A model generated the notes under the pieces. It made no database searches and was not told where the DNA came from. It was given only the letters and a program-made list of their open reading frames with translations. Of a stretch of DNA of 64,000 bases, positions 38,326-63,607 are shown piece by piece; position 1 is the first letter of the stretch, and each line of letters begins with the position of its first letter. Position numbers and translations under genes: made by a program. Source of the stretch: Solibacillus sp. FSL R5-0449 (GTDB lineage Bacteria > Bacillota > Bacilli > Bacillales_A > Planococcaceae); assembly GCF_037975215.1 (NCBI RefSeq), contig NZ_CP150239.1:1402001-1466000 (forward strand), in the 5' to 3' direction.

Positions 38326-38497
38326 TATTAGAAAAGTCCGGGCACATATTAGAAAAATTGGGCAGGATATTCGAATATTCTCGTGCTTTATTTGAATAAT
38401 TGAAGCACTTATTAGAATAAAGAGGCGTTTTATTAGAACATCACACTTTTACTAGAAGATTTTTGAGCATATTAGACAATGGAGCAACTTATTAGAA
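38326..38497. repeat. Phased TATTAGAA array A (nine units, 172 bp)
   Basis: Octamers begin at 38326, 38347, 38368, 38389, 38410, 38431, 38450, 38470 and 38490, so the spacings are 21,21,21,21,21,19,20,20. Five units are exactly TATTAGAA; the others differ by one base (TATTCGAA, TATTTGAA, TACTAGAA, TATTAGAC). The 11-13 bases between them vary. The array begins 25 bases after the catalase stop and is followed by a terminator. The same spacing pattern recurs at 63436-63607. Confidence 0.9.
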
Positions 38498-38536
38498 AAT
38501 CAGCCTCATTGCAATGGAATCCTTATCACAATACAG

Positions 38537-38573
38537 AAAAAACATTTTTCTCATTTGAGAAAAATGTTTTTTT
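38537..38573 (+). terminator. Terminator downstream of array A
   Basis: AAAAAACATTTTTCTC pairs with GAGAAAAATGTTTTTT. If catalase transcripts run this far they would carry array A in the 3' untranslated region. Confidence 0.85.
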
Positions 38574-38830
38574 ATGGAAATAAGTTTTAATCAATATCTC
38601 TATTTTCCTATACACTTTCTGAAAAATGAATATTTGGAATAATAAAATATCGTAATAATAGTATGATATAATATACAAATTGTAGTTAATTTAATAAAGG
38701 AAGGGGGACAACTAGGGAGAAATCGAAAAAAGGCTATAATAATCGAAAAATTCGATATGGGGAATATAGCTTTAGTAATTATTTTAAGAAAATACATAGT
38801 GATCGAAGGATTAAAAGAGGAGTTAGACGT

Positions 38831-39886
38831 GTGAAAAATATATTGAAAATTGCAAGCGCTTTTATTGGCGTGATTGTAGGGGCAGGGTTCGCATCAGGAC
38901 AAGAAATACTGCAGTACTTTACAAGCTTTGGAATACTCGGGATATTCGGAGCTATTTTATCAACGGCCCTGTTTTCAGGCATTGGTATGCTGTTAGTATG
39001 GCTTGGCAGTTATACAAAAACGACATCACATAAAGACGCTATATACCGAATTAGTGGCCGATATATAGGAACTGTCATCGATTTCATTCTTATTTTTACA
39101 TTGTTTGGTGTAGGTGTCGTAATGCTGGCTGGAGCCGGTTCGAACTTAAATCAGCAGTTCGACTTACCAGTCTTTGTGGGTACGACCCTTATGACAATAC
39201 TCGTTTTATTAACAGGATTTTTGAAAGTAAATCGCGTTGTTGCCATTATAGGAAGCATTACGCCGGTTCTCATTATTTTTGTCGTATTTATTGCAATTTA
39301 TAGTTTTATAACGATGAATGGCACTTTTACATCGTTAAACGATGTAGCACAAGCAACTCCAACTACACTGCCAAACTGGTTTATTTCCAGTATTAATTAC
39401 GTCTCATTTAATGTCGCAGTTGGAGCTTCAATGTCAATAGTGATGGGCGGAGCAGAAAAAAATCCAAAAACAGCAGCAATAGGCGGATTGGTTGGAGGAC
39501 TAATTTTAGGGGTTCTCATTCTATTAATTCATTTAGCCATTTTCTCGAAAATTGAAGAAGTTGGTGCATTGGACATGCCAATGCTAGGAATTGTTAGTAA
39601 CTTATCGCCAATATTAGGTATTATCATGTCAATAGTTATTTTCTGTATGATTTATAATACAGCGGTTGGAATGTTCTTTTCTTTCTCAGCACGTTTCGCG
39701 GAATCCGAGACACAGAAATTTAAAACATTCTTTACAATTACAATGATTGTTGGTTATTTGGCAAGTTTCGTAGGCTTTACCGGCCTCGTTAGTTATTTCT
39801 ATCCACTAATCGGTTATCTGGGGATTATTCTTATCCTTGCTTTAGTGGCAGCACCCTTTATTATTAAGAAACAAGAAGCAAAATAA
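38831..39886 (+). CDS. YkvI-like polytopic membrane transporter
   Basis: 351 residues with about 10 predicted helices. The N-terminus (ASAFIGVIVGAGFASGQEIL) matches the first discontinuous helix of LeuT/APC-type carriers, and overall it resembles the YkvI family of uncharacterised membrane proteins. GAGGAG lies 6 bases before the GTG start. The substrate is unknown. Single-gene unit with its own terminator. Confidence 0.8.
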   Translation: MKNILKIASAFIGVIVGAGFASGQEILQYFTSFGILGIFGAILSTALFSGIGMLLVWLGSYTKTTSHKDAIYRISGRYIGTVIDFILIFTLFGVGVVMLAGAGSNLNQQFDLPVFVGTTLMTILVLLTGFLKVNRVVAIIGSITPVLIIFVVFIAIYSFITMNGTFTSLNDVAQATPTTLPNWFISSINYVSFNVAVGASMSIVMGGAEKNPKTAAIGGLVGGLILGVLILLIHLAIFSKIEEVGALDMPMLGIVSNLSPILGIIMSIVIFCMIYNTAVGMFFSFSARFAESETQKFKTFFTITMIVGYLASFVGFTGLVSYFYPLIGYLGIILILALVAAPFIIKKQEAK

Positions 39887-39904
39887 TTTAGAAGCATTAT
39901 AAGT

Positions 39905-39944
39905 AAAGCTACCATCTTCTTATTTTAGAGATGGTAGCTTTTTG
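39905..39944 (+). terminator. Terminator after the YkvI-like gene
   Basis: AAAGCTACCATCT pairs with AGATGGTAGCTTT, then a T-run. Confidence 0.88.
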
Positions 39945-40092
39945 CAGTTTTAAATTGCGTAATATGTCATATATAATTGACTAAGTTAATATATATGTTA
40001 CACTTTGATTGTAAGTAAATTTTTTCCTATTCGTATTTTGTCAGCAACTAAACCTCGTGACATCAAAATTTTTAGGGAGGAGGCCTTTCAAA

Positions 40093-40311
40093 TTGAAAGA
40101 TGTACAAATAAGTAACTGTGTGAAATTACGAAGAACTGAATTAGGCAATTTAACACAAAGTGATTTAGCTAAGCAAGTTGGTGTCACAAGACAGACGATG
40201 AATTTAATCGAAGCACAAAAGTATAATCCTACAATTAAAGTTTGCTTGCTGATTGCAAATGCATTGGATACTTCTATTGAAAAATTGTTTTGGATGGAGG
40301 AAGAACTATGA
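40093..40311 (+). CDS. Small HTH-XRE regulator
   Basis: About 72 residues, almost all helix-turn-helix (TQSDLAKQVGVTRQTMNLIEAQKYNPT) of the YgzD/immR-like short repressor type. The TTG at 40093 lies 9 bases after GGGAGGAGG, so it is better than the GTG at 40057. Its stop overlaps the next gene's ATG. Such single-domain regulators commonly repress the operon in which they sit; the two membrane genes downstream are the probable targets. Confidence 0.83.
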   Translation: MKDVQISNCVKLRRTELGNLTQSDLAKQVGVTRQTMNLIEAQKYNPTIKVCLLIANALDTSIEKLFWMEEEL

Positions 40312-40670
40312 AAAAGACATTCACCTATATCCCGGTTCTTTGCTGTATTGTTGTAATTTTATTTATTGAAAGTACATTATTGAAATGGATTTTGCTAGTA
40401 GGAATCGGTTGCTTAATGGTTTTAGCAAAGTATAGGAGAAGTAAATTGATGAACGACGAATTCGAATTTGATGATCGTGTAAATGCAAATATTACTAAAT
40501 GGTCATTACGAAGCATGTTCGTTTTAAATACATTGCTCATAATGATTTTAGTTATTGGCAGCCAAGGGGTTTTGGAATGGGCGATAAATATAGAATGGAT
40601 TTTGATATATTTAATCATTACGCTTTGCATTCCTTTCTATATTGTTCCAGCTGTAATAAAAAACTTTTAG
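40308..40670 (+). CDS. Hypothetical membrane protein (120 aa)
   Basis: Four predicted helices (YIPVLCCIVVILFIESTLL, WILLVGIGCLMVL, FVLNTLLIMILVIG, WILIYLIITLCIPFYIV). The ATG overlaps the stop of the regulator gene. It belongs to the regulator/membrane cassette and resembles small DUF2178-like membrane proteins found in such gene groups. The role is unknown. Confidence 0.65.
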   Translation: MKKTFTYIPVLCCIVVILFIESTLLKWILLVGIGCLMVLAKYRRSKLMNDEFEFDDRVNANITKWSLRSMFVLNTLLIMILVIGSQGVLEWAINIEWILIYLIITLCIPFYIVPAVIKNF

Positions 40671-40682
40671 GGGGATCGGGAA

Positions 40683-40961
40683 ATGGAAATGAACTTAGTT
40701 ATAATTGGCGTAATATTTTTAGTGCTTGGTTATTTAGTCGGTGTTAAAAAGTTAACTTGGCTACTAGCAGGGTATAATGAAAAGCGGGTAAAAGACAAAA
40801 ATAAATTGGCCGTACTTGTCGGTGGAACATTTGCTTTACTAGGTATAGGGATTGTCATAAGCGGATTTGCAGGTGTACAACAAGCAGAAACGGTTATGTT
40901 TGTGGCAATAGGTATCATTTTGCTTGAGTTGGTTTATGTTAACGCAAAAATGGTGGAATAA
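40683..40961 (+). CDS. DUF3784-like membrane protein (92 aa)
   Basis: Three helices (LVIIGVIFLVLGYLVG, LAVLVGGTFALLGIGIVISG, TVMFVAIGIILLELVYV) with a GYNEKRVKDK loop, matching DUF3784. GGGGGA precedes the ATG. Third gene of the HTH/membrane cassette and followed by its terminator. Families of this type accompany small XRE regulators in Bacilli, but the function is not known. Confidence 0.7.
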   Translation: MEMNLVIIGVIFLVLGYLVGVKKLTWLLAGYNEKRVKDKNKLAVLVGGTFALLGIGIVISGFAGVQQAETVMFVAIGIILLELVYVNAKMVE

Positions 40962-40969
40962 AATTAATA

Positions 40970-41008
40970 CCCGGCTCCCTTTATGTATAGGGAAGCCGGG
41001 AATTTTTA
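40970..41008. terminator. Terminator after the DUF3784 cassette
   Basis: CCCGGCTCCCT pairs with AGGGAAGCCGGG (bulge), then AATTTTT; T-rich on both strands. Confidence 0.82.
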
Positions 41009-42556
41009 TTTTTTACGGATATGATAATCAATATGTAAAAACTTTATACCGAACAGTGTCATCTGATGCGTTGCTGTAAGAATGCCTTGCTGTTCCCTAA
41101 TCACAAAATTCTCATGTAACGGAAGTTTGAATAGATAAGATCTGAACGTTAAATACGTACCAGCATCGCCTTGTCCGTCACTTGTTAAGTACAGTGCGCG
41201 GTCTTTTACGGAAAGCTGCAGTATTCCATGCATCGACGAGAAGGGCAAAGGCAATGCAATATTCATATAAGTATTGGCTGCATCACGATGCTGCGAATAA
41301 ATCGCATTAAAAACGGGTTCCCCATTGATCGACCGTTGCCAGACACGCGGTTTTTCCCGACCATCTTGTTGGGAATCAACTTGCCAGATTTCACCGTCCA
41401 TCACAATCATTTTTGAGGAATAGGGTAAATTCAGCTGTCCCATTTTCCTGCTAATGAATTGATATATATAAGCAAAAGGTTTAAACCATGCTGCCCATTG
41501 AACCGACGCTTTTAATTCAAATCGCTTAGTATGTTCATAAAACTCATGAACCAATTCAGAAATTTCCTCTTTATTAATATAGGATGACATATCATCGACA
41601 AGTCCAGGTGCCGGTTTGTTTGTTGGAGAAAATCTTCCGCGAATTTTGCTTATCGGGAATGTATAGTCGTGATGCTTTGTCGGTGGCAGCAATAGACTCC
41701 AGGCGATTACTACCGATATACCAAAACCTAAACAATTTAATAGCCCATGAAAATCCAGCATATCCGGAATATCAACAAGATTCGTACCTGTAAAATTGCT
41801 ATACGCATATAAAAACGACCAAATAATTGTAAAGCATAATGTCAAAAATGCAAGGCGAATGAAGATGCGTTGAACACGAGGTAATGGCCACTTCATTACG
41901 AAAAAGCTAATGCTGAAAATGGCAATGACATACAAACTTACTGAAATGATTTCAACAATTCTTGAAAAAGTTATTCCGATCGCTACTAGCATTGGTCCTG
42001 CTGCGATGACGGCACAGCAAAATTTGAAATAACGGGTCATATGAAGACGTCCGATCAAACCGACTGTAATGCATAGCAGAAAGGCGGAGTAATGAAAGTG
42101 AATTGCTGTCAGCCATGTAATGATGGGACTGAAGCCTGTATCCAGTTGCAGATGGAATGCCATAAACCACAGTCCACCCATTACAATATAAATGAGACCG
42201 ATATCGATCATTATTTCTGCTGTATTGACAAAGCCTCTTTTTAAAAACCGGTTAATACCTTGAGAGGCAATGAGAAGTGTACTTAGCAAGTAGATAAGTA
42301 CACAAAGCAGGATGGAGAAATTGTTCTGTGTAAAGTAAAGCATTGTCACTGCAAATTGACCGCCAGCTATAATAAGTCTTTGCCAATTTTTCAGGGAAAC
42401 CAACAGCTCTACCATGACTGGTACAAAGATAAGTTGGGCCAGCGTCAAATAATAATACATCGATGTTGGTTCGTTAAATAACAGAAGCGTGGCCATACAT
42501 ACCAGACCGATGATTGTTAAAGGTCTACTGAGCACATGGCGTAAATTGACCAGCAT
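41006..42556 (-). CDS. yndJ: YndJ-like membrane protein
   Basis: 516 residues. The N-terminal 280 residues have about 9 membrane helices; the C-terminal 230 form a soluble domain (IWQVDSQQDGREKPRVWQRS). This layout and order match YndJ of Bacillus subtilis. It is the last gene of a yndG-yndH-yndJ operon; its start overlaps the end of the DUF4166 gene by 32 bases and has GGAAGGA before the ATG. The function is unknown. Confidence 0.78.
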   Translation of the reverse strand: MLVNLRHVLSRPLTIIGLVCMATLLLFNEPTSMYYYLTLAQLIFVPVMVELLVSLKNWQRLIIAGGQFAVTMLYFTQNNFSILLCVLIYLLSTLLIASQGINRFLKRGFVNTAEIMIDIGLIYIVMGGLWFMAFHLQLDTGFSPIITWLTAIHFHYSAFLLCITVGLIGRLHMTRYFKFCCAVIAAGPMLVAIGITFSRIVEIISVSLYVIAIFSISFFVMKWPLPRVQRIFIRLAFLTLCFTIIWSFLYAYSNFTGTNLVDIPDMLDFHGLLNCLGFGISVVIAWSLLLPPTKHHDYTFPISKIRGRFSPTNKPAPGLVDDMSSYINKEEISELVHEFYEHTKRFELKASVQWAAWFKPFAYIYQFISRKMGQLNLPYSSKMIVMDGEIWQVDSQQDGREKPRVWQRSINGEPVFNAIYSQHRDAANTYMNIALPLPFSSMHGILQLSVKDRALYLTSDGQGDAGTYLTFRSYLFKLPLHENFVIREQQGILTATHQMTLFGIKFLHIDYHIRKK

Positions 42557-43133
42557 ACATCATCATCCTTCCGATGAAATCATTATAAATGGAAACATGA
42601 ATCGTATATACATCGAGCACATCATCGTAGCCTTCTGTTACAACAACGCGGCCCGTCAGTTTCTTTGGCAAACCCACTTCTTTACGCCCGAAGACGGCAC
42701 GCTGTTCTGCAGAGCGGATCATTAATGAACCGTCCTTTGTAACATCCATTTTTAAGTCAGAGTAGAACAGTGAAGGATCCCCTAAATAATCTTTAACAAT
42801 TTGTCTTTCCAAATCGACTGTCATCGTTGCATTGAACTTTCTTGTCGCCAGTGGAAAATAGAAGGTGCGCTCCCAATACACTTCAGCGTCCTTTTCGTTG
42901 TTCATTCGTGCGGTATTCGTTATTGTAAAAGGAATTTCCTCGCCGGACTCTGGAAAGAGGAAGTCTGTTTTAGTAAAGAATGTATACATTGGTCGTAATA
43001 AACGTGGTCCGGAATGAATAACTTGCATTGTTCCTTGTGCATGAAAAGGCTGACCTAATGGTAGGCGGTACCTTTCCTGCAGTTTTGGATGCAGTCTGTT
43101 AAAGTCTTCTGCCAGCAATGTTTCGTAAATCAT
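42525..43133 (-). CDS. yndH: DUF4166 protein (YndH-like)
   Basis: About 202 residues. The pattern LPLGQPFHAQGTMQVIHSG and ERTFYFPLATRKFNATM match DUF4166, a START-like or lipid-binding fold without known activity. AGAGGTG is 6 bases before the ATG at 43133. The gene overlaps yndJ and follows the SRPBCC/DoxX-like gene by one base, so the three form an operon, probably acting on a shared membrane lipid or surface component. Confidence 0.75.
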   Translation of the reverse strand: MIYETLLAEDFNRLHPKLQERYRLPLGQPFHAQGTMQVIHSGPRLLRPMYTFFTKTDFLFPESGEEIPFTITNTARMNNEKDAEVYWERTFYFPLATRKFNATMTVDLERQIVKDYLGDPSLFYSDLKMDVTKDGSLMIRSAEQRAVFGRKEVGLPKKLTGRVVVTEGYDDVLDVYTIHVSIYNDFIGRMMMYAGQFTPCAQ

Positions 43134-43134
43134 A

Positions 43135-44043
43135 TTAAGCACCTCTTTTTCGTTTGCAAAATTTTGCTGTCGGTAATTCTTTTGTCAGCAGTAAAGCAAC
43201 TATTGAAGCAATCCATAATCCAACGTTAAAGGTAACAACATTAAATGGAGCCGTTGCTACTGAAGGTGCAGCGATAATTGCGCTTAATGTCAGCAATGGG
43301 AACAATAAAATCTGTGCTTTTAGCAGCAGCGGTTGCAATTTCGGTACCAAAAAGATGATCCCAATCACCATCTCCAACATACCTATCCAAACTATGGCTG
43401 TTGATGCTTGACCATAAGCTAGCGGGGACAGTTTCATCAGCATATCAATTTCAAGCGGATGCTTCATCAACACTTTCGGAACGAGACCTTGGTAGAGCCA
43501 TATGAAACTAAACAGGAAGCAGAGTAAATAATAGCTGAAAAATCGCCGGTATTGGGTTGCCGGTTTTTCTCCGAGTTCAATCCATCTTGCCAACACATTA
43601 AAGCTTAGCGCAGTTGCCCAGCCGATAACAGGACGGAAAAGTAAATCAAACAATTGTCCGAATCGACCAAATCGGGCATCATAGTCATACTGGGTCAGAA
43701 AAGTAACGCGGTCGCCATTCGGTATATATTGCCAGTAGCCGCGTCCTTCTTTAATTGGGGAAATCATTTGCGGTGTTCCGAAATGCAGAGAAGAAGTTTT
43801 AACACCACTTGCTTTTTCATGTGTTCCTTTACTTTCACCCCAACCTGCAACTGACAGACCCGGCATTATTTTTGTTGTATATGTAAAAGTTTGAGGTGCG
43901 TCCTCATGCTGTTTTTCATTGTAGGTGATGGATGTGAAACGTAAATCCCATTGTTCATGCAGATCAGGCTGCTGTGTATATTGCCATACTTTTTCAATCG
44001 AGCTGTCTATTACAGTTTCCACATAAATCGGCTTTTTCTTCAA
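43135..44043 (-). CDS. yndG: SRPBCC/DoxX-like protein (YndG-like)
   Basis: 302 residues. The N-terminal 170 residues show an SRPBCC ligand-binding pattern (YVETVIDSSIEKVWQYTQQPDLHEQWD) that in this family handles hydrophobic ligands; the C-terminal 130 residues have DoxX-like membrane helices (RRFFSYYLLCFLFSFIWLY). AAGGAG precedes the TTG start. First gene of the yndGHJ operon. The biological role is unknown. Confidence 0.75.
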   Translation of the reverse strand: MKKKPIYVETVIDSSIEKVWQYTQQPDLHEQWDLRFTSITYNEKQHEDAPQTFTYTTKIMPGLSVAGWGESKGTHEKASGVKTSSLHFGTPQMISPIKEGRGYWQYIPNGDRVTFLTQYDYDARFGRFGQLFDLLFRPVIGWATALSFNVLARWIELGEKPATQYRRFFSYYLLCFLFSFIWLYQGLVPKVLMKHPLEIDMLMKLSPLAYGQASTAIVWIGMLEMVIGIIFLVPKLQPLLLKAQILLFPLLTLSAIIAAPSVATAPFNVVTFNVGLWIASIVALLLTKELPTAKFCKRKRGA

Positions 44044-44203
44044 AATTTCAGCTCCTTTATCAAAATATATTCTACATAATCATCATACCTTAATATTCCT
44101 ACTTTAAAGTGAATGAATTTGGATAATAAATGTTAATCTCTTACAATTTCAAGTATTATAAGAGTGTATAGTATTTAAGTAACCTATTTTAAGGGAGGAA
44201 GCA

Positions 44204-44833
44204 ATGGACTTTATTTTGGATTATAAGTGGTTTTTCCTCATAACGGCAGAAGTTGTCTTTTGGGTATGTGCATTTGCCTTTTTGCTGTTGCGCTACTGGT
44301 TTCAGCTGAAAAAGCTGAGTATATTCGTATTTATTATTTTTATTGTGAATGATTTATGGATTGCACTTTTGGCTTATTTTGATTATCAGCGAACAGGTGA
44401 ATTTTCGAGTTATCAAATTATTATCGTGATTCTTATTGTATATGCGATGACATTCGGGAAGTCAGACTTTAAAAAGCTCGATGCCTTTATTAAAAGGTGG
44501 GTGGCTAAAAGACGGGGAGAGCCAATCGATAATTCACTCCAACCTGTTAAACTGTATGGGAAGGCTTATGCGATACAAGAATGGAAGCAATTTGCGTTAC
44601 ATTTCGTCGTTTTTATCATTGTTCACATAGGATTTGTAATTGCAGTCGGTTTTTCAGACAGTTTGCAGCAAATACCACTGAGTGATTTTTTCGGAATGTG
44701 GTTTGATGACGAGAGCGGAAATTTCCCATTTAATAATGAAGGAATCAATAAATTCAGTCAGGTATGGCTAATTATTCTTGCCATTGATTTTGTGATAACA
44801 CTTTCGTACACTTTATTTCCGAAAGAGAAATGA
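44204..44833 (+). CDS. Hypothetical membrane protein (209 aa)
   Basis: Five predicted helices (FFLITAEVVFWVCAFAFLLL, FIIFIVNDLWIALLAYF, QIIIVILIVYAM, HFVVFIIVHIGFVIAVGF and a C-terminal one), with a charged loop in the middle. GGGAGGAAGC precedes the ATG. No family recognised. It is upstream of two genes for an exported lipoprotein and a small membrane-anchored protein, which may be unrelated. Confidence 0.65.
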   Translation: MDFILDYKWFFLITAEVVFWVCAFAFLLLRYWFQLKKLSIFVFIIFIVNDLWIALLAYFDYQRTGEFSSYQIIIVILIVYAMTFGKSDFKKLDAFIKRWVAKRRGEPIDNSLQPVKLYGKAYAIQEWKQFALHFVVFIIVHIGFVIAVGFSDSLQQIPLSDFFGMWFDDESGNFPFNNEGINKFSQVWLIILAIDFVITLSYTLFPKEK

Positions 44834-44928
44834 TTGAAGTGATAAATTAAAATACGGCAAATTTAAGGTGTTAAATTTAACTAAATGCACTTGAATAAAA
44901 CGAGACGAACCAAGGAAGGGGACGTAAC

Positions 44929-45315
44929 TTGAAAAAATTAATATCATTCATGTTTATTACAGCCATACTTTTAGCTGCTTGCAACTCCTCGGAATTGAGT
45001 ATTACCGAAGTGCAAAAGATTCCTCCAAAAGTACAGGAGAGTATTGATTTTATGGATCCCGATGACACATTGCAGCTTGTTAACGATAGCAAAAGCGATG
45101 TGAAGTATATTGTTTTTCAATCTGCAGGAACCGTAACAGCTGAACTTGAAGAGAGAGAAAACATATTGGATATAAAATTGGAAACTGAAAATGAAGAAAA
45201 TAGCGAGTTAAAACAATACGTTTATAAAATTACTCGTGGTGATGCACAATATGATTCAATTAATGTAAAAATAAACGGACAAGATACACCTATAGATAGT
45301 TCCACAGGGTTTTAA
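44929..45315 (+). CDS. Small lipoprotein (128 aa)
   Basis: Signal peptide with lipobox LLAAC (Cys near residue 18), so the mature chain is attached to the outer face of the membrane. The body is acidic with DDTLQLVNDSKSDVKYIVFQ and no known domain. AAGGAAGGGG precedes the TTG start. A second exported gene follows 28 bases later, making a likely pair. Confidence 0.75.
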   Translation: MKKLISFMFITAILLAACNSSELSITEVQKIPPKVQESIDFMDPDDTLQLVNDSKSDVKYIVFQSAGTVTAELEERENILDIKLETENEENSELKQYVYKITRGDAQYDSINVKINGQDTPIDSSTGF

Positions 45316-45343
45316 AAGAAGGTTAGATTAGATGGAGGAAGTT

Positions 45344-45745
45344 TTGAAGAAATTTTTAGTAGTATTTGTTATTTTAATTTTATTTTTTATTGTAAGAGGA
45401 TTTAATAGTAATTCGCCTAATCAAATTAAAGCAGATTACTTCGATATCGGTTATGGGCAGAGCATGTTTGAGGGCTATAACAAAGTGGATGAAAAAACGG
45501 TTCAGTCGCTTGTGAAGGAGTACAATCAAATTAAAGATATTGAACAGACAAACGAGGAAATTAATTATGATAAGGCGGTAACGATTCATTTTATCTATAA
45601 TGATCAAATATCAGGTAGTTTAGTGATCGATAATAAAGGGGTTTTTCTACTGGGAAATCGTTCTGGAAATTTTCAAATCGACGAAAACAATGATATGTAT
45701 GAAAAAGCTTTAAAGATTTATAAAGAAGTGAAAGAACAAAATTAA
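45344..45745 (+). CDS. Small membrane-anchored protein (about 133 aa)
   Basis: N-terminal hydrophobic segment (FLVVFVILILFFIVRGF) followed by an acidic extracellular or cytoplasmic domain. GGAGG lies 5 bases before the TTG at 45344; an ATG at 45332 with a weak site is possible and would add four residues. No family recognised. Likely co-transcribed with the lipoprotein gene. Confidence 0.6.
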   Translation: MKKFLVVFVILILFFIVRGFNSNSPNQIKADYFDIGYGQSMFEGYNKVDEKTVQSLVKEYNQIKDIEQTNEEINYDKAVTIHFIYNDQISGSLVIDNKGVFLLGNRSGNFQIDENNDMYEKALKIYKEVKEQN

Positions 45746-45769
45746 AATAGAGCTTTATAATTATGAAAT

Positions 45770-45810
45770 TAAAATCCCTTTTGAAGCTAATCAATCAAAA
45801 GGGATTTTCT
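45770..45810. terminator. Terminator after the membrane-anchored protein
   Basis: AAAATCCCTTTTGA pairs with TCAAAAGGGATTTT, T-rich on both strands; between convergent genes. Confidence 0.88.
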
Positions 45811-45824
45811 ATATAGCGTCGGTA

Positions 45825-47111
45825 TTATCGCTTGAATATTTCAGTCAATGCTCTGCCATCTGTATTTCCAAAGTCCAAATCTAAAATATGTGCAATGGTC
45901 GGACCGATGTCAACGACACAAGCTTCGCCAATTGTTGAGCCGGCTTTCACACCGTTGCCTGAAATAATCAGGTTGCTCGTATAATCGGGTTTATTAGGGG
46001 AGTAACCATGTGTCGCATACTTTTCGCCAAGTGCATGTAAGTCGACCACAACTTCCTGTAAATGGTCATCTTCAAAAGCAAAGCCTTCTTTCGCTTCAAT
46101 CATATAATGGAATTTACTGGCCACATGAAGTTCCTGTAATTCCTCCGCACTTAAAATCGCTTCGATGCCGTAAGCCTCATTCCGTGCAGCATCCTGTAAA
46201 ATTGTAAGCGCTATCTTTTCTGCTTCTACATCACCGGGCTGTACATGTAAATACGCGGCTCCACCAGCACTTTGAACATATGCACGCCAATGCCAGTTTC
46301 CATTCTCCTCATAAATCAGGCCTTCCTCGTATAAAATCCGGTTCAAATACACTTTATACTGAACATCGAGCTGACTATGATCTCCGACGATTATAAAAGT
46401 CGTTTCTTCATAAATATCCGCATCGATTGTCGCCTGGATGAGGTCTCCAATTCGGCGATCCATCCGTTCAATGACTTCTTCGATATGAGGCCCCTTTGTT
46501 CCATGTAAATGCTTCGTATCATCGAGATCAATTAAATGCATTAGAAGTAAATTCGGCTTTTTCTTTTTAATCGTATCTACTGCACATAGTGTTGTGAAAT
46601 CATCCAAATACGGCTGCTGAATCCCTTGCCGAACTTTTCCGTACTTCAGTTCCATTTGCATCGTAAACAATTTACTGCCGCTTTTCAGTATTTTCAGTGC
46701 CTGGTTTTCATTTTTAATCGCTTTTATTTCGGGAATATTAAAGTGAATATCCGCTTTTCCTGATACTGGCCATAAAAGTCCTGCAGTTGTAAGTCCTTGT
46801 TTTCGAGCTGCCTCATATACAGTTGGAGCTTGGATATCACTTCGGAACCAGTGCCATTTCTGATCGTTTTCGGGCACGAATGGCTGAAATGGATTGTTAT
46901 GAAAAACTCCGTGCCGGTCTGGGTAAACACCTGTCACATAGGAGCTGTGTATAACATAGGTGAGGGTAGGGTAGACACTTTTCATTAAATTTGTGGAGGC
47001 CCCTCGTTCAATCAGTTTTGCTAAATTCGGTTTCGATGCTGCACTTTCCCAATTATCTTTAGAAAAGGCATCATATGAAACAACGATTACATATTTATGA
47101 TTTTTATTCAT
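45825..47111 (-). CDS. Alkaline-phosphatase-superfamily phosphodiesterase
   Basis: 428 residues. Opening block VIVVSYDAF has a metal-ligand Asp; the nucleophile Thr is in SVYPTLTYVIHSSYVTG; later metal sites are DLDDTKH and IVGDHSQLD, matching the nucleotide pyrophosphatase/phosphodiesterase family. No signal peptide, so it probably acts inside the cell. It starts 4 bases after the MFS gene on the same strand, so the two are an operon. The substrate (nucleotide or phosphonate) is unknown. Confidence 0.83.
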   Translation of the reverse strand: MNKNHKYVIVVSYDAFSKDNWESAASKPNLAKLIERGASTNLMKSVYPTLTYVIHSSYVTGVYPDRHGVFHNNPFQPFVPENDQKWHWFRSDIQAPTVYEAARKQGLTTAGLLWPVSGKADIHFNIPEIKAIKNENQALKILKSGSKLFTMQMELKYGKVRQGIQQPYLDDFTTLCAVDTIKKKKPNLLLMHLIDLDDTKHLHGTKGPHIEEVIERMDRRIGDLIQATIDADIYEETTFIIVGDHSQLDVQYKVYLNRILYEEGLIYEENGNWHWRAYVQSAGGAAYLHVQPGDVEAEKIALTILQDAARNEAYGIEAILSAEELQELHVASKFHYMIEAKEGFAFEDDHLQEVVVDLHALGEKYATHGYSPNKPDYTSNLIISGNGVKAGSTIGEACVVDIGPTIAHILDLDFGNTDGRALTEIFKR

Positions 47112-47115
47112 TTGA

Positions 47116-53971: not shown

Positions 53972-53985
53972 AGGGGAGGTTAACT

Positions 53986-54171: not shown

Positions 54172-54186
54172 ATAGAATAGTTGGCG

Positions 54187-56389: not shown

Positions 56390-56427
56390 GAGGGGCAAAG
56401 TGAAAAAAATTAAATAGCAATGAATAT

Positions 56428-56470
56428 AAGCTTGGAAAGCCTTAATTAGTAAGGTTTTTCCAAGCTTTTT
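56428..56470 (+). terminator. Terminator after the acidic repeat protein
   Basis: AAGCTTGGAAAGCCTTA pairs with TAAGGTTTTTCCAAGCTT (bulge), then TTTTT. Confidence 0.85.
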
Positions 56471-56598
56471 ATTTTGGAATTGTAAATGTAAAACCTAATA
56501 TGCAATAAATAAATCACGAAATTAGATATATATTTATTGATTTACGATAAATCATATATTAAAATCAAAATTGAAAATAAATAAATGAGGTGCGAATT

Positions 56599-57081
56599 AT
56601 GGAAAAAGTAACTACGTTGTTTTTAAAAGTTGCTGTTGTTTTTTTAGGAATTCCTATTTTGGCGTTATGCATCTTTTTAGTACCTGAGTTGGCAAATGTA
56701 GCATCAAAAATGCTTCCGGAGTTTGCATTCGTAAAATATTTTGTTTACATCGTTTTCGATGCTTCGGCAATTCCTTATTTCTTTGCTTTGTATCAGGCTT
56801 TCCTACTTTTACGCTTTATCGACAATAATAAAGCGTTCTCTGAGCTAGCTGTGAAACCTTTAAAGAAAATAAAATATTGTGCCATCACAATTAGTATTTT
56901 GCATCTATTCGTTTTACCGCTGTTTTATGTATTTGCAGAATTGGATGACGCACCGGGTGTTATCTTTGTCGGATTAGTTGTTCCTTTTGCTTCATTGGTA
57001 ATTGCAGTCTTCGCAGCGGTTCTTCAAAAACTTTTACAGGAAGCAATTCATATTAAATCTGAAAATGATTTAACGGTCTGA
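56599..57081 (+). CDS. DUF2975 membrane protein
   Basis: About 160 residues with four helices. The layout matches DUF2975 (FFALYQAFLLLRFIDNNKAFSELAV). GAGGTG lies 6 bases before the ATG at 56599, better than the GTG at 56590. DUF2975 genes are commonly followed by a small XRE regulator, as here (YoaS-YozG in Bacillus subtilis). The role is unknown, possibly membrane stress or peptide response. Confidence 0.8.
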   Translation: MEKVTTLFLKVAVVFLGIPILALCIFLVPELANVASKMLPEFAFVKYFVYIVFDASAIPYFFALYQAFLLLRFIDNNKAFSELAVKPLKKIKYCAITISILHLFVLPLFYVFAELDDAPGVIFVGLVVPFASLVIAVFAAVLQKLLQEAIHIKSENDLTV

Positions 57082-57092
57082 GGTGAATAACT

Positions 57093-57308
57093 ATGGCAAT
57101 TATTATTAATATTGATGTGATGCTGGCAAAAAGGAAAATGAGTGTAACAGAACTTTCGGAAAAGGTTGGAATTACGATGGCTAACCTTTCCATATTGAAA
57201 AATGGAAAGGCAAAAGCCATCCGAATAACAACTTTAGAGGCGATTTGTAAGGCGTTGGATTGTCAGCCTGGAGATATTTTAGAATACAAAAGTGATGAGG
57301 AAATTTAG
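57093..57308 (+). CDS. Small HTH-XRE regulator (YozG-like)
   Basis: 71 residues, a single helix-turn-helix (MSVTELSEKVGITMANLSILKNGKAKAI) typical of the regulator partner of DUF2975 proteins. GAGGTG precedes the ATG, 11 bases after the DUF2975 stop. It probably controls this three-gene operon. Confidence 0.83.
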   Translation: MAIIINIDVMLAKRKMSVTELSEKVGITMANLSILKNGKAKAIRITTLEAICKALDCQPGDILEYKSDEEI

Positions 57309-57336
57309 GTGGAACATAATTGAGGGAGGGAAAGCA

Positions 57337-58584
57337 ATGGAGAGTAATAATTTGGTTATTGAAAATATTACTAAACCCGATGTACTGGAGAAAATGTATC
57401 GAAAAGACCCGAAAGCTTTTACTAAGTCATTTAATCAGGCATGGGAACAAAACTCTGATTCCCCGATTTTGAGTGTTTGGTATGAAAGATTGAATTTCAA
57501 TGAAATGGATAGTAAAAAAAGGTCTGCGTCATTACAAAGTGGATTTATTTTCATGGGAATATTAGCGATCATGGCAGGGGTATGCACAAGAATTATATTC
57601 CATTTTGTCGAGCAGGAATCGATCGCTCCGATTAATCTGGCATTTGGTATTATTCCGTTTATTGCTGCCTACTTCGTTTACAAGCATAAACCTAAAAGAA
57701 GTATCATTTATTCGTTAGTGGCAATGTTCTTAGTTTCAGGAATTTATTTGAATATGCTGCCATTGAATTTCAATGACGATAGCATAATTTTAGCATATTT
57801 ACATTTCCCCATTTTCTTGTGGGTATTATTAGGGCTAGCATATACAGGAAATGATTATTTAAATAGCAGTATAAGATTAGCTTATATCAAATTTAATTTA
57901 GAATTTGGCATTCTTTACGCCAGCATGGCAGTTAGCGGGATGTTTCTCGCATTATTAACGTTGCAGTTATTCAGCTTTATTGGCTTAGATATTGAGAACT
58001 TCTATTTTAGTAATATCGTTTTATTTGGGGCAGCGGCACTTGCTGTTGTAGGTGTTCACCTCGTTTCTATGAATTTAAAGTTGGCCAAAAATATAACTCC
58101 ATTTATCGCAAAAATATTTAGCCCGTTAGTATTTATTACTTTAATTGTATACCTTGTAACAGTCCTATCGGTCGGTAAAAACCCGTTTTTGGACCGTGAT
58201 TTCCTGATCGCTTTCAACGGAATACTACTTGGCGTACTGGCTGTTACAATCTTCTCTATTACCGAGAAGGATTCGGACGATAAAAAGACCATCTTCGACT
58301 ATGTCAATTTCGCTTTAATCGTTGTTGCGCTTATTATTGACAGTGTCGCATTATCAGCCATCATGTTCAGAGTGACTTCTTACGGTATTACACCAAATCG
58401 GCTTGCTGTTTTAGGGGTGAATATACTAATCTTTGCAAACCTACTTTGGATAATGATTTCCTATTTACATTATCTTCAAAATAAATCCGGACCTGAAGCG
58501 ATTCAAGATGCCATTACGAAGTATTTGCCGGTATACGGATTGTGGGCAGCTTTCGTTATATTTACTTTTCCGATTATTTTTTAG
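57337..58584 (+). CDS. Polytopic membrane protein (415 aa)
   Basis: About 10 predicted helices with an N-terminal soluble 70-residue section (DPKAFTKSFNQAWEQNSDSP). GGGAGGGAAAGC precedes the ATG at 57337. Third gene of the DUF2975/XRE operon. I recognise no family with confidence; the layout is like small-molecule permeases or DUF4153-type proteins. Confidence 0.6.
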   Translation: MESNNLVIENITKPDVLEKMYRKDPKAFTKSFNQAWEQNSDSPILSVWYERLNFNEMDSKKRSASLQSGFIFMGILAIMAGVCTRIIFHFVEQESIAPINLAFGIIPFIAAYFVYKHKPKRSIIYSLVAMFLVSGIYLNMLPLNFNDDSIILAYLHFPIFLWVLLGLAYTGNDYLNSSIRLAYIKFNLEFGILYASMAVSGMFLALLTLQLFSFIGLDIENFYFSNIVLFGAAALAVVGVHLVSMNLKLAKNITPFIAKIFSPLVFITLIVYLVTVLSVGKNPFLDRDFLIAFNGILLGVLAVTIFSITEKDSDDKKTIFDYVNFALIVVALIIDSVALSAIMFRVTSYGITPNRLAVLGVNILIFANLLWIMISYLHYLQNKSGPEAIQDAITKYLPVYGLWAAFVIFTFPIIF

Positions 58585-58610
58585 ATAAAAGAGATAGAGG
58601 ATATCACATT

Positions 58611-58646
58611 AAAGCAGATGACGAAGTGAGTTCGTACATCTGCTTT
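58611..58646. repeat. Strong hairpin without T-run
   Basis: AAAGCAGATGACGAA pairs with TTCGTACATCTGCTTT (one bulge). There is no T-run, so it could be an RNA-stability element rather than a terminator. It lies in the gap before the quinone oxidoreductase. Confidence 0.6.
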
Positions 58647-58824
58647 CAAAATATAGCATCATTATTACTGCCAATAAAAATTATTTCTCGCCCCCTCTAT
58701 ATTATCCATATAGATGAACCAATAAGAGTATTACATTTTAATAATTTATTAAACGAAGCTATCTCTATACAAAATGTAATTTTTCTAATATTCTTAATAT
58801 AATATAGTTGATGGGGTGAAGTTA

Positions 58825-59802
58825 TTGAAAGCAATACGTATCAATCAATTTGGAACATCTGAAAATTTAGTTGTGGAGCAAGCGGAAGTATCGACACCGG
58901 CAGAAAATGAGGTACTGATAAACATTCATGCGGCAGGTGTAAATCCTAGCGATGTTTATACTTCCACAGGTACATATGCGGTTAAACCGAATCTGCCATA
59001 TACGCCAGGGTTAGACGGGGCGGGGGTTGTTGAACAAGTTGGAGCACAAGTGACTAACGTAAAAGCAGGGGACCGAGTATTTATCGCGAGCTTGCCGAGT
59101 GGTAAGTCGACAGGTACATTGGCACAAAAGATTGTTTGTGAAAGCCGCTTTGTTCATCCGATTCCGGAGCATATTTCGTTTGAGCAGGGATCCGCATTAG
59201 GAATTCCGGCACTGACTGCTTACAGAGCATTGGTTGGAAGAGCGAAAGTGAAATCAGGGCAAACGGTTTTCATTCACGGAGCGAGTGGTGCGGTAGGTTT
59301 GCAGGCTGTTCAAATTGCAAAAGCTTTAGGAGCAAAAGTAATAGGAACGGCAAGCCGTGATTCCGGGAAACAACTTGTAAAAGAAGCGGGCGCGGATGTT
59401 GTGCTTGATCATATTAAAGAAGAAACGATTGAGACTGTGCTTGATGCCAATGATGGCAAAGGTCCGGATGTCATAATTGAATTTCTGGCGAATGAAAATC
59501 TGCAAACTGACTTGCAGATGGTTGCTAAAAACGGTGTCATTGTCATTGTCGGAAACCGTGGGGAAATTGAAATTAATCCACGACTAGTTATGCAAAAAGA
59601 ATGTGATGTACGTGGGATGGTACTGTTTAATGTATCGGCAGAAGAACACCAGGAACTAATATACGGTGTAGCAAAGCTGCTGGAAACAGAACAGCTAAAA
59701 CCTGTCGTAGGTTACAGTTATCCAATAGAAGAGGCTGGTAAGGCATTTGATGCAGTAATTAATGGGGAGCATAACGGGAAAGTAGTTGTTAAAACTCAAT
59801 AA
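58825..59802 (+). CDS. Quinone oxidoreductase, zinc-independent MDR family
   Basis: About 325 residues. Canonical N-terminus MKAIRINQFGTSENLVVE and the nucleotide-binding motif HGASGAVGLQAVQIAKALGA identify a medium-chain NADPH:quinone reductase; the zinc-binding Cys residues of alcohol dehydrogenases are absent. GGGGTGAAGTTA precedes the TTG at 58825. It reduces quinones or enoyl compounds in the cytoplasm. No MhqR-like box was found upstream. Confidence 0.87.
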   Translation: MKAIRINQFGTSENLVVEQAEVSTPAENEVLINIHAAGVNPSDVYTSTGTYAVKPNLPYTPGLDGAGVVEQVGAQVTNVKAGDRVFIASLPSGKSTGTLAQKIVCESRFVHPIPEHISFEQGSALGIPALTAYRALVGRAKVKSGQTVFIHGASGAVGLQAVQIAKALGAKVIGTASRDSGKQLVKEAGADVVLDHIKEETIETVLDANDGKGPDVIIEFLANENLQTDLQMVAKNGVIVIVGNRGEIEINPRLVMQKECDVRGMVLFNVSAEEHQELIYGVAKLLETEQLKPVVGYSYPIEEAGKAFDAVINGEHNGKVVVKTQ

Positions 59803-59811
59803 TTTATTTTT

Positions 59812-59839
59812 AGGACTAGTATATTTACTAGTCCTTTTT
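59812..59839 (+). terminator. Terminator after the quinone oxidoreductase
   Basis: AGGACTAGT pairs with ACTAGTCCT, then a T-run. Confidence 0.85.
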
Positions 59840-59968
59840 ATCTGACAATTCCCAAAAATTAAGTAAATACTTGTGATATTATTTCGCTTTTTTGCAACTA
59901 TTTAACAAATAGTTAATAAAAATTGTTATGATAGTTGTATAGAAACGAGAGGGATAGGTAGCAAGTAA

Positions 59969-61807
59969 ATGGGATTTAAAGAAGAAATGAAGCGTGAAAT
60001 ACGTAATGCCAAAAATGACATTGCAAAAGAAGTGGAAAAGCAATGGATCTTGGAGTATGAAGGTCATCAAATAGAAGTTAGGAATGGCATGATGGAAGAA
60101 GTTTTAAAGGTAGATGGCCAAACGATTGCACAAAATGTACGGAAATCAATCTGGTCGCATCTAATACCATTTTCAACAATGAAAGGGACGTTCCAATCCA
60201 AAAGCGGTAAAACACATAGAGTATATGTGAAAATAGGCGGCTTTGTTAAATTGAATATAAAGGTGAAAGTAGATGGAAAGCAGTTGCTCCATGAGGCTAT
60301 GAAACTGCAATTTTTACCATGGGCAAATAAGGTGTATATCGTACCTTTGCTTGAAGAGCAATATGAGCAAAATCAACAGGTAATAACAAAAGATTTGCCG
60401 GATGACGATTTTTTATATGATGAACATCATCCGAAATTTGCGCCAGGGTTTGCAGACCAGCTGCATCAAGAGGCAGTAACACCATTTTATACGAAAAAGC
60501 TGATTAAGCTATTTTTAGAACAGGTTACTAATCCGAATGAGCAAACACGTAAATCAACCTACGAAAAAATTAAAGATGAGAAGGTCATCAGCTATTTCCA
60601 TGAATTTTTGGAGCGGTTTTCTGAAGCTGAAAAAGATGAAGACCGAGTGAAAGAAGAGGCAATTTGGCTGCTAGAACATGCGGCACATCGCGAAGTAGTG
60701 AAATTTGCGCTTCTTGTATTGGGAACAGTAAAATGTGAAGAGTATAAAGAACGATTAAAAGTGATTGCATTGCATGAAGAGTTTACCGGAGTGGCTTTAT
60801 TCGCAATAACTAACGGCACAACTAACAGTAATGAGATCGTATGGTATATTGCGAAAAATGTTTCAGACTGGGGTAAACTTGAAGCATTAAATTTCCTGGA
60901 TGCCTCAAATGAAGATATCCGACAGTGGATATTGCTGGAAGGTCTAAAAAATACTGTACCTGGGAATGCCTCGGCATTAATGTGTGCTGAAAAAGGGAAG
61001 CTTGATATTGAACTGCACGAAAAAATTATTTCCGGGAAAATATTTGACAGTGCGGGAACAATTATATTAGCGCTTTTATATGAAGGGGCTTATCAAACGA
61101 TGGATGAATATCAGTATGCAGGTCAAGTACTGATGCGCTATACACATCATGCGAAAACACATTGCCTGACATTCAGCCAGTTTTTTATTTTGACACAAAT
61201 TCATGAGTATTTACAATATGATGAAGAAACATGGGATGATCGCTTTTCATCTAACTGGAAACCGCATGAAAAGCGTACAGTAGAAGAAAACATCAACGTG
61301 ATTGCTCAAAATCCATTATGGCTGCAGGAAGCATTGGAAATTCTGCAATATGACCAGGAAAATGAGGATATGGCGTTAGCGGTAGCCAAATATTATAAAG
61401 CAGATATAACGGACATCGTATTTGAAAAGTTAAAGAGTCACCCTGAAAATGTGCAATATTATTATTCATTATTTGCCGCGAAGGATCCGCAAGTTATCGA
61501 ACGTCTAATTGGAATTACGGCGTGTTTTGGTGATTTCAATGAACTGACGAACGACCAGAAAGTTGTAGTTTTATCACTTATTGAAGAATTGGATCAGTAT
61601 GATGGGATTGGTATGGATTTTATTAGGCAAGCTTTAAAAACGACTGACGACCATTTGCAGTATATGGCGATTCAAACATTACTTTCATATGATCGTGTGC
61701 ATTGGCAAGGTACTGAAATCGAAGAACATATAGTGCGTTTTACAAAAGAATCAAAAGATCCGGATGTGAAGGAAATCGCTAAGCAATTGCTTGCGATAAA
61801 TGAATAG
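59969..61807 (+). CDS. Large helical-repeat protein (612 aa), unknown role
   Basis: The first 130 residues contain a beta-rich domain (GKTHRVYVKIGGFVKLNIKVKVDG). The rest (about 190-610) is a chain of alpha-helical repeats of the HEAT/ARM type (EEAIWLLEHAAHREVVKFALLV, DVKEIAKQLLA) that usually form protein-binding scaffolds. No signal peptide or transmembrane segment is visible. Single-gene unit with a terminator. No function assigned. Confidence 0.65.
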   Translation: MGFKEEMKREIRNAKNDIAKEVEKQWILEYEGHQIEVRNGMMEEVLKVDGQTIAQNVRKSIWSHLIPFSTMKGTFQSKSGKTHRVYVKIGGFVKLNIKVKVDGKQLLHEAMKLQFLPWANKVYIVPLLEEQYEQNQQVITKDLPDDDFLYDEHHPKFAPGFADQLHQEAVTPFYTKKLIKLFLEQVTNPNEQTRKSTYEKIKDEKVISYFHEFLERFSEAEKDEDRVKEEAIWLLEHAAHREVVKFALLVLGTVKCEEYKERLKVIALHEEFTGVALFAITNGTTNSNEIVWYIAKNVSDWGKLEALNFLDASNEDIRQWILLEGLKNTVPGNASALMCAEKGKLDIELHEKIISGKIFDSAGTIILALLYEGAYQTMDEYQYAGQVLMRYTHHAKTHCLTFSQFFILTQIHEYLQYDEETWDDRFSSNWKPHEKRTVEENINVIAQNPLWLQEALEILQYDQENEDMALAVAKYYKADITDIVFEKLKSHPENVQYYYSLFAAKDPQVIERLIGITACFGDFNELTNDQKVVVLSLIEELDQYDGIGMDFIRQALKTTDDHLQYMAIQTLLSYDRVHWQGTEIEEHIVRFTKESKDPDVKEIAKQLLAINE

Positions 61808-61820
61808 GTTAACACTGATT

Positions 61821-61858
61821 AAAAATTCGAAGCGCTACTACAGGCTTCGAATTTTTTT
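61821..61858 (+). terminator. Terminator after the helical-repeat protein
   Basis: AAATTCGAAGC pairs with GCTTCGAATTT, then TTTT. Confidence 0.88.
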
Positions 61859-61940
61859 GCTTTATGAGAAAGTTTCAAATGTTTACTGACAAGCACAAAG
61901 GGAATATTTTTTATAAGTCGATTTATAAAGGAGTTTGATT

Positions 61941-63368
61941 ATGCTAAATCATACAAAACAATACATCAATGGGGAATGGGTTGATTCTACTGGATCAGAT
62001 ACAATCGAAGTAATTAACCCTGCGACAGAGGAAGTAGTAGGTAAGATTAGCAGCGGGACGAAAGAAGATGTGAATCGAGCGGTCCAGGCAGCGAATGAGG
62101 CTTTCCCTTCCTTTTCAAAAATGTCGGTGGATGATCGAATTAAGCTGTTGGAAGCGATTGCTGAAGAATATGAAAATCGTAAAGATGATTTAGTGAAAAT
62201 AATGACCGCTGAGTTAGGTGCACCTATTACCAAATCGGAGGAAATCCATTTTAAGATGGGGCTAACGCACTTTAAAGAAGCGGCAGAACAATTGAAGACA
62301 TTTAAATTTACCGAAAAAAGAGAGAAATCATATATTCAAAAAGAACCGATTGGAGTAGCCGGGCTGATTACACCGTGGAATTTCCCGACAAATCAGCTTT
62401 CCACAAAGCTTGCAAGTGCACTGGCGGCCGGTTGTACGATGGTAGTAAAACCTGCTTCCCAAACACCGTTTGCAGCGGTCATTCTGGCAGAAATTTTGGA
62501 TAAAGCGGGTGTTCCAAAAGGAGTCTTTAATCTTGTAAACGGTTCAGGTTCAACAGTAGGTGAAGCAATCAGTACACATCCGGATGTGGACATTGTATCG
62601 TTTACCGGATCAGGTGAAGTTGGCAGCGGATTAATGAAAAATGCTGCTGAAGATATTAAAAATATTTCATTGGAACTTGGCGGCAAATCACCATTTGTTA
62701 TTTTAAAAGATGCGGATGTAAAGGAAGCAGCAAAAGCGGCATTAGGACAAATTGCTATGAATACAGGGCAAGTTTGTTCCGCGGCAACCCGCATGATTGT
62801 ACCGGAAGAAATGCATGATGAATTCATTGAAGCAATGAAAGAATTTGTTACGGAATTTCCAGTAGGGGATCCACAGGATAAAAATACATTTATGGGTCCT
62901 CAAGTTTCCAAAGATCAGTGGGAGACCGTTCAGTCCTACATTAAAAAAGGTGAAGAAGAAGGTGCAACCATTGCAATCGGTGGGCCAGGCAGACCAGATG
63001 GAATTAATAAAGGTTTCTTCTCACAAATTACGGTATTTACGAATGTGAAAAACGATATGACCATTGCACAGGAGGAAATCTTTGGTCCGGTTATGTCGGT
63101 CATCAAGTACAAAGATTTAGACGAAGCCATTGATATTGCTAATGATACGATTTATGGACTTGCCGGATATGTATTCGGTAATGATAAAGAAGACCTGAAG
63201 AAAGTCGCATTCTCCATTCGAGCAGGGCAAATTCGTATTAACGATAGTGAAACGGATCGTTCAGCACCATTCGGCGGATTTAAACAATCTGGTATTGGCC
63301 GTGAATGGGGCGATTATGGTATCGAGGAGTTTCTTGAGCCAAAAGCGATTATGGGAATGCCGTTCTAA
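61941..63368 (+). CDS. NAD(P)-dependent aldehyde dehydrogenase
   Basis: About 475 residues. LELGGKSP holds the general-base Glu, [12 protein letters not shown] the nucleophile Cys, and GSGEVGS the cofactor loop. It oxidises an aldehyde to a carboxylic acid. AAAGGAG lies 7 bases before the ATG at 61941. The substrate is unclear; betaine aldehyde is possible next to betaine transporters, but no gene for that pathway is adjacent. Confidence 0.9.
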
Positions 63369-63376
63369 TTGGAAAG

Positions 63377-63410
63377 CTGTCCAAGTGTTTGTAACTTGGG
63401 CAGTTTTTTT
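63377..63410 (+). terminator. Terminator after the aldehyde dehydrogenase
   Basis: CTGTCCAAGT pairs with ACTTGGGCAG, then a run of seven T. Array B lies just beyond it. Confidence 0.88.
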
Positions 63411-63435
63411 GTCTTGAAGAAATTGAGGGAGATTT

Positions 63436-63607
63436 TATTAGAACAGTTGGGGAGGATATTAGAAGAAATGCGCTGGTTATTTGAAGAACGGTAGAACATA
63501 TTAGAAGAGTTGCCGGCCTTATTAGAACAAACATTAAATAAATTAGAACTTCGAATTTTTATTAGAACAAATAAAAATATATTAGCAGATCTCAAAATTT
63601 ATTAGAA
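63436..63607. repeat. Phased TATTAGAA array B (nine units, 172 bp)
   Basis: Octamers begin at 63436, 63457, 63478, 63499, 63520, 63541, 63560, 63580 and 63600, so the spacings are 21,21,21,21,21,19,20,20, identical to array A. Six units are exactly TATTAGAA; the others are TATTTGAA, AATTAGAA and TATTAGCA. The bases between units have diverged from array A except near the ends. It lies in the gap between convergent aldehyde dehydrogenase and opuAC genes. Confidence 0.9.

Follow-up and report, generated by a model that had tools for sequence, protein, structure and literature searches.

Short words repeated in one orientation and in helical phase are familiar from plasmids, in which RepA iterons and the centromere repeats of ParR, StbA, and omega are bound cooperatively. 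Here we describe arrays of comparable layout on the chromosome of Solibacillus sp. FSL R5-0449. They came to attention in a stretch of 64,000 nucleotides (hereafter the window; positions 1402001–1466000 of the 3,582,823-bp contig NZ_CP150239.1, at whose start dnaA lies by reading), which holds two rows of nine octamers, TATTAGAA or variants of it, designated arrays A and B. As in plasmid iterons and centromere arrays, several short, direct-orientation, helically phased words stand in a row, about two turns apart. Unlike those systems, the Solibacillus arrays occupy dozens of chromosomal gaps instead of one rep or par locus, follow a 4+9 architecture, and use words that vary between related species. 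No initiator gene lies by the window arrays, the ones whose neighbors were compared with protein families, and the 49 clusters recognized in this genome are dispersed over the chromosome; because there is neither a single locus nor such a gene, we do not regard the arrays as members of the iteron class.

Other described systems resemble the arrays in part. The sites of MatP (matS), Noc, and SlmA also number in the tens per chromosome and could likewise organize the nucleoid, but they are single palindromic sites, whereas the Solibacillus sites are phased direct arrays with no established terminus pattern. REP/BIME and other interspersed repeats also form dispersed intergenic families near gene 3′ ends; the Solibacillus arrays, in contrast, lack a palindrome or stem-loop, and their constraint falls on phased octamers and spacing. 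The HIP1 octamer of cyanobacteria is another genome-wide short word without an assigned function whose form varies by lineage, but it is palindromic, singly dispersed, and found within genes as well. For H-NS, the arrangement of binding sequences directs higher-order nucleoprotein structure, as it might here, whereas H-NS reads an AT-rich motif and not dozens of loci that share a strict word at a fixed helical spacing (PMC5418058). Our literature search, in which subscription papers were mostly out of reach, returned, among the matches listed, nothing whose title or opening abstract lines dealt with arrays of this kind. As the original prediction had it, no described family was found for this design.

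Two arrays and their chromosome-wide family

Array A spans 38326–38497 on the plus strand, with octamers starting at 38326, 38347, 38368, 38389, 38410, 38431, 38450, 38470, and 38490. Array B, also on the plus strand, spans 63436–63607, with starts at 63436, 63457, 63478, 63499, 63520, 63541, 63560, 63580, and 63600. Start-to-start distances are 21,21,21,21,21,19,20,20 in both. The positions and identical spacing first predicted therefore stand, but not all the octamers are exact: TATTAGAA occurs at five of nine sites in array A, where the others read TATTCGAA, TATTTGAA, TACTAGAA, and TATTAGAC, and at six of nine in array B, where the others read TATTTGAA, AATTAGAA, and TATTAGCA. The conserved ends of the two arrays are, on reading the sequence, as predicted. 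The linkers have indeed mostly diverged: the two arrays match at 66 of 72 positions within octamers but at just 44 of 100 within linkers, so they did not arise by a recent duplication that left the linkers alike. The window contains 16 exact octamers, a count reached in none of 100 shuffles (mean 4.9).

These two arrays belong to a large family distributed chromosome-wide. Adjacent exact octamer pairs number 325 in the genome (200 forward, 125 reverse), and the reversed pattern does not occur. The pattern with the 19-bp step is found at 48 places (29 forward, 19 reverse), the two strands being mixed along the chromosome. Our sample of this genome comprises the window and 42 further stretches, 41 picked for holding arrays plus the contig start. 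Within these 261,441 bases, nearly all from array-selected stretches, a chaining rule finds 83 octamer chains, compared with none after the same DNA was mono-shuffled once. The chains group into the 49 clusters, most of them ∼170–820 bp long, and the commonest unit is a four-octamer block (21,21,21), a gap, and then a nine-octamer block. From the last octamer of one block to the first of the next, the gap is 50 (two cases), 71 (five), 72 (three), 81 (18), 82 (five), or 174 bp (one case, between tandem copies).

Spacing in other copies is not random. The arrangement 21x5,19,20,20 recurs exactly in 21 of the 49 nine-blocks; 11 read 21x5,19,20,21, 10 read 20,21x4,19,20,21, and seven are other near variants. 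All 49 lie within 1 bp of the pattern at every gap, under an acceptance rule that demands the 19-bp step and hence leaves strongly altered copies uncounted. The variant TATTTGAA stands at site 4 in 24 of the 49 nine-blocks and at site 3 in 12, and the site-3 TATTTGAA of array B is kept in all six species compared. The middle sites may be kept weaker.

Two ideas about the chromosomal distribution did not survive inspection. Sorted by strand, the sites looked polar by replichore, but both strands are mixed along the chromosome. An array-poor region at ∼1.87–2.6 Mb suggested exclusion from the terminus, but it is not centered on the skew flip at ∼1.6–1.7 Mb. Both ideas were dropped. Separately, a dense run of clusters lies within ∼43 kb at 2.688–2.731 Mb (L043, L044), and clusters are dense as well at 3.04–3.07 Mb of the sister species G159. 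Outside the TATTAGAA arrays, this genome also has a GTAGAA word present six times at 42,21,21,21,21 (L029, position 3153), the sole such chain in 318,943 bases scanned.

Constraint on words, spacing, and helical phase

Orthologous arrays in G159 provide evidence that both word and geometry are selected. Of the 49 clusters, 39 could be paired with G159 sequence, the other 10 having no ortholog among the G159 stretches. Substitutions and gaps were compared in 25 pairs, after 14 with length differences above 120 bp had been dropped; at L027, which is among the 25, no G159 array was recognized. Octamers differ at 80/2319 positions (3.4%), linkers at 665/3174 (21.0%), sequence between blocks at 242/989, and flanks, which include coding sequence, at 763/5041 (15.1%). 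Gap events per kilobase number 3.4 in octamers, 7.2 in linkers, 24.3 between blocks, and 31.7 in flanks, so that the rate within arrays is about one-fifth of the flank rate. A nine-block was recognized in both species for 33 of the 39 pairs; the spacing vector is identical in 29 of these, and only 4/264 spacings changed, each by 1 bp; since the six pairs lacking a nine-block on one side are omitted, the spacing constraint is somewhat overstated.

The G159 ortholog of array A has the same spacing, save for a last step of 21. Array B keeps identical spacing in G154, G155, G156, and G163 and has one site fewer in G159, with eight octamers at 21,21,21,20,19,20,20. More broadly, whole-unit loss and gain does occur, as block numbers vary between orthologs. 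The conservation of octamers and spacing between orthologs argues for constraint and not mere inheritance, in agreement with the selection on geometry that had been proposed; it indicates that word and spacing are both held. Within the 21-bp unit, substitution rates are 0.00–0.10 at offsets 0–7, 0.06–0.14 at offsets 8–10 and 20, and 0.26–0.37 at offsets 14–18. Constraint thus spans offset 20 through offset 10 and relaxes at offsets 14–18, a pattern as expected for a protein that would touch one face of the helix.

Helical phase extends across the gaps between blocks. With few exceptions, neighboring octamers lie ∼2, 4, 5, 6, 7, 8, 9, or 10 turns of ∼10.3 bp apart, and distances between exact octamers cluster at 19–21, 39–42, 49–50, 59–63, 70–72, 80–82, 91–93, and 101–104 bp. 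In this genome (433 distances) and in G159 (464 distances) alike, the mean cosine of phase is 0.74 for distances above 24 bp, with best-fit periods of 10.26 and 10.28 bp, respectively; many distances are copies by descent, so these numbers overstate the independent evidence. With 10.3 bp per turn, the sites of a full 4+9 element are in coherent phase (R = 0.90). Because distances of five, seven, and nine turns are not produced by a 21-bp tandem unit, a role in DNA helical phase is favored over one in RNA. The original prediction had left open a multisite protein or a structural role in DNA or RNA; the phase evidence narrows that choice toward DNA, and the binder itself is one that we infer.

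Other words in relatives and the gene context of the arrays

Three phased copies of TATTAGAA occur in 13 of 261 genomes of the family (11/16 Solibacillus, 2/25 Ureibacillus, 0/220 others), with no control matches. The Ureibacillus TATTAGAA arrays are built of modules mostly spaced 21,21,21,40. A wider search gave 32 array loci, 20 of them in Solibacillus and Ureibacillus (including S. palustris, S. merdavium, U. manganicus, and U. acetophenoni); among the 12 outside these genera, 11 have pure 21-bp spacing and five have an open frame. Long pure 21-bp tandems of TATTAGAA-like words were seen in metagenome-assembled genomes of Odoribacteraceae (L083, 19 octamers) and Acidobacteria (L109, 14 octamers, some inexact), and neither tandem, extended by 150 bases, is spanned by an open frame.

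Related species place different words on one geometry. In the gap after eno, read in 16 Solibacillus genomes, TATTAGAA arrays are present in G000, G150, G151, G154, G155, G156, G159, and G163. By reading, G162 has ATAATAG[CT]CA words there at 21,21,20,21, and G161 has GGACAAA in 103-bp modules. G160 carries a chain of 12 ACTAGCC words ∼1.5 kb from eno; a transposase-like reading frame (by reading; L192, L229) lies directly after eno in that genome, before the array. In the same gap no array was recognized in G152, G153, G157, or G158, and G164 reads ambiguously. A de novo scan, which covered 40 kb of G150 and the 60 kb surrounding eno in G157, G158, and G164, did not yield a four-member chain of exact 7-mers; counts at lag 21 came to 18, 28, 22, and 17 (G157, G158, G164, G150) against medians of 10, 11, 7, and 7, and weak or degenerate arrays may be present in these four. 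GGACAAA triplets at 19–21 bp occur in 7 of 261 family genomes, with one control match in one genome: Ureibacillus G244 (66 matches), G248 (47), G255 (28), and G256 (10), Solibacillus G161 (2), and two other genera with single matches. In a class-wide sample, 2/398 genomes have one, both single.

At site L030, one gap holds different words in different species. A TATTAGAA array is common to this genome, G154, G155, G156, and G163, while the same gap in G152 and G153 holds a row of eight other words, among them ATATTCGCCA and TTAATAGACA, spaced 21,21,21,21,21,20,20. G152 and G153 bear TATTAGAA arrays elsewhere, and the L030 words could reflect either change in place or the independent arrival of an array. 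Between G152 and G153, these words differ at 1/80 bases and the linkers at 14/76. Aligned by eye, the various words loosely follow T[ACG][GT][ACT][AC]A. G162 has further repeats: a second phased word, CGAGCATA, at 21,20,21,21,20 less than 0.2 kb from a TATTAGAA array (L078, position 5635), and eight TGGCAAT words at an 18-bp period (L237, position 5913).

The arrays are biased toward gene 3′ ends. Of the 49 clusters, 48 were placed in gaps, 30 in co-directional, 15 in convergent, and 3 in divergent ones, whereas the remaining 68 gaps of 120 bp or more within these loci comprise 44 co-directional, 4 convergent, and 20 divergent ones (p = 0.002 for divergent). In co-directional gaps the array points with the genes in 22 of 30, and a terminator-like T run, judged by eye and uncounted, often immediately precedes an array. 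The 50 bp ahead of clusters have a GC skew of +0.45 and the 50 bp behind them one of −0.32; GC and TA skew turn from positive to negative across the element whichever way the neighboring genes face. Arrays in G150, G151, G162, and this genome (L071 6718–6830, L073 6346–6458, L077 5978–6048, L044 4406) adjoin the same small gene, encoding PFLMFQ...EEAMNFYTS, by reading a VOC-type protein. In G150, G151, and G162, the array lies upstream of this gene, opposite a divergent regulator-like gene.

In the window, a co-oriented catalase gene (36306–38300, plus strand; Pfam PF00199, PF06628, PF18011) ends 25 bp ahead of array A. Downstream of that array is a terminator-like hairpin (38537–38572, minus strand, 16 pairs) from a terminator scan that averaged 0.1 in shuffles; by reading, a plus-strand T run follows it as well. 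An aldehyde dehydrogenase gene (61935–63368, plus strand; PF00171) lies upstream of array B. Between the two is a hairpin with a T run (63377–63410, plus strand), a terminator by eye that is absent from the scan list; a similar hairpin was read in five other species compared. To the right of array B, the scan lists a terminator-like hairpin at 63753–63779 (minus strand). A DnaA-box-like TTATCCACA lies at 63650–63658, 42 bp past array B, and is kept in five of six species compared, G154 having TTATCCACC; a single occurrence over the window does not exceed the chance expectation. An Rfam search over the window gave no match at array A or B and two matches elsewhere, at gathering scores, to Bacillaceae-1 RNAs (RF01690; 1231–1297 and 8338–8404, on opposite strands).

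A putative protein platform and its alternatives

With moderate confidence, we interpret the arrays as multisite platforms at gene 3′ ends for a putative sequence-specific protein that would assemble head to tail on one DNA face. Each short word, in its single orientation, would bind one protomer; words at a two-turn distance, or at 4 to 10 turns where a gap intervenes, would set the protomers on one face; and their cooperative head-to-tail assembly would yield a polar nucleoprotein filament. A likely use would be in holding chromosome domains or in blocking both read-through and convergent transcription. We infer the protein, its cooperativity, the assignment of one protomer per word, and the function alike. 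Words that vary across species while the geometry persists fit a protein whose recognition surface drifts.

Several results weigh against this interpretation. We identified no binding protein, and no neighboring gene stands out as a candidate, the low-copy genomes having been judged by reading open reading frames (ORFs) only. A stricter context count, which dropped the 22 of 49 clusters overlapped by ORFs, leaves 10 arrays with and 7 against the genes, besides 9 in convergent gaps and 1 in a divergent gap; the bias in polarity is therefore sensitive to how genes are called. The G159 stretches were picked at array matches, and dropping 14/39 pairs from the gap comparison and 6/39 from the spacing comparison biases the indel counts downward. 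The same 4+9 element is not coherent at 10.5 bp per turn (R = 0.36), and the best periods are 9.72 bp for Ureibacillus TATTAGAA, 10.74 bp for Ureibacillus GGACAAA, and 10.08 bp for G160, so that the helical fit is clear only in the Solibacillus sets; these three smaller sets contain few long distances, which accounts for their off-period fits. Five of 16 Solibacillus genomes lack a TATTAGAA triplet, and their pair counts (0, 0, 0, 1, 0) are at control level. At site L041, G150, G157, G158, G160, and G161 have the same flanking genes and a gap of 103–168 bp but no array; hence the L041 array is not essential.

The same site bears on an alternative that we judge unlikely but not negligible: that the arrays are selfish elements akin to miniature inverted-repeat transposable elements, in which the words are bound by the protein of a mobile element and each copy is a nonautonomous insertion, often after a terminator. 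At this gene pair the array is found in eight species (the present one, G152, G153, G154, G156, and G159, and, as full-length matches, G155 and G163), is missing in those five, and gives way to other sequence with no recognized array in two (G162, G164). In the gaps without an array, the flanks are too diverged to place its ends for a check of target-site duplication. Copies are interspersed and tandem-duplicated, and the spread over Solibacillus and a few Ureibacillus is patchy, as insertions would be. However, dead copies should decay evenly, whereas fixed orthologous copies hold words and spacing under strong constraint. There is also no sign of terminal inverted repeats or a terminal stem: across the 49 clusters, cognate 45-bp flanks pair no better than noncognate ones (mean rank 0.45). 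ORF reading revealed no transposase and no master copy by a mobile gene near the arrays of low-copy G150, G151, and G162.

An RNA function, in which transcripts carry the arrays as 3′ tails and the word serves for protein binding or processing of the RNA, would suit both the gene 3′-end location and the orientation with the upstream gene in most co-directional cases. We consider it improbable, because distances of five, seven, eight, and nine turns of ∼10.3 bp suit duplex DNA and not flexible RNA. Moreover, two full elements show no excess folding against shuffles (z = −0.93 and +2.06), the window arrays have no Rfam counterpart, and array B sits, by reading, after a terminator-like hairpin.

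Quite improbable, in our judgment, is an intrinsic DNA structure in which phased AT-rich words bend DNA or favor strand opening with no dedicated protein. The AT-rich word, which alternates at the helical period with linkers richer in G or C, and the skew flip across the element (GC skew from +0.45 on the left to −0.32 on the right) speak for it. Against this, word identity is conserved far beyond base composition, words differ between species yet repeat within arrays, and neither TATTAGAA nor ACTAGCC contains an A-tract of four. Very improbable is the notion that the arrays are decoys titrating a plasmid or phage initiator or partition protein, as in iteron-like incompatibility, with words tracking local parasites: the iteron-like geometry and the differing words of close species agree with it, but array B has no blastn match in 72,556 plasmid records (a weak search because linkers drift), and the 13 viral contigs with three phased TATTAGAA hold mostly 20- or 21-bp arrays and have no assigned hosts.

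Three other identities were rejected on the features tested. The dispersed intergenic copies are a REP/BIME-like feature, but a palindromic unit able to fold is not supported by the palindrome count (one of 12 nt in array A, none in array B) and by the folding z-scores above. Decayed coding heptads, suggested by 21 bp being seven codons, would be thrown out of frame by the steps of 19 and 20 bp, and none of the 12 Ureibacillus arrays tested has a frame that stays open throughout. CRISPR arrays have identical repeats of ∼24–47 bp and unique spacers, whereas these words are 8 bp and the linkers can be aligned between orthologs; cas genes were not searched for.

Selection on helical geometry is seldom so visible from sequence alone, with words and spacing held while linkers drift. 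If a protein reads the arrays, Solibacillus and Ureibacillus would provide a series of words that nature has set on a single architecture, and with it a ready means to follow the joint change of DNA-binding specificity and dozens of dispersed sites. The arrays may then also represent a new layer of chromosome organization at gene ends. A broader version of the protein interpretation, which we put forward tentatively as possible, is that of a bacterial chromatin system: a polymerizing DNA-binding protein would organize the chromosome through dozens of phased arrays whose words are repeatedly replaced between related species, even within a single intergenic region, without loss of the geometry. 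If true, this would be a bacterial counterpart of the fast co-evolving recognition of centromeres or satellites.

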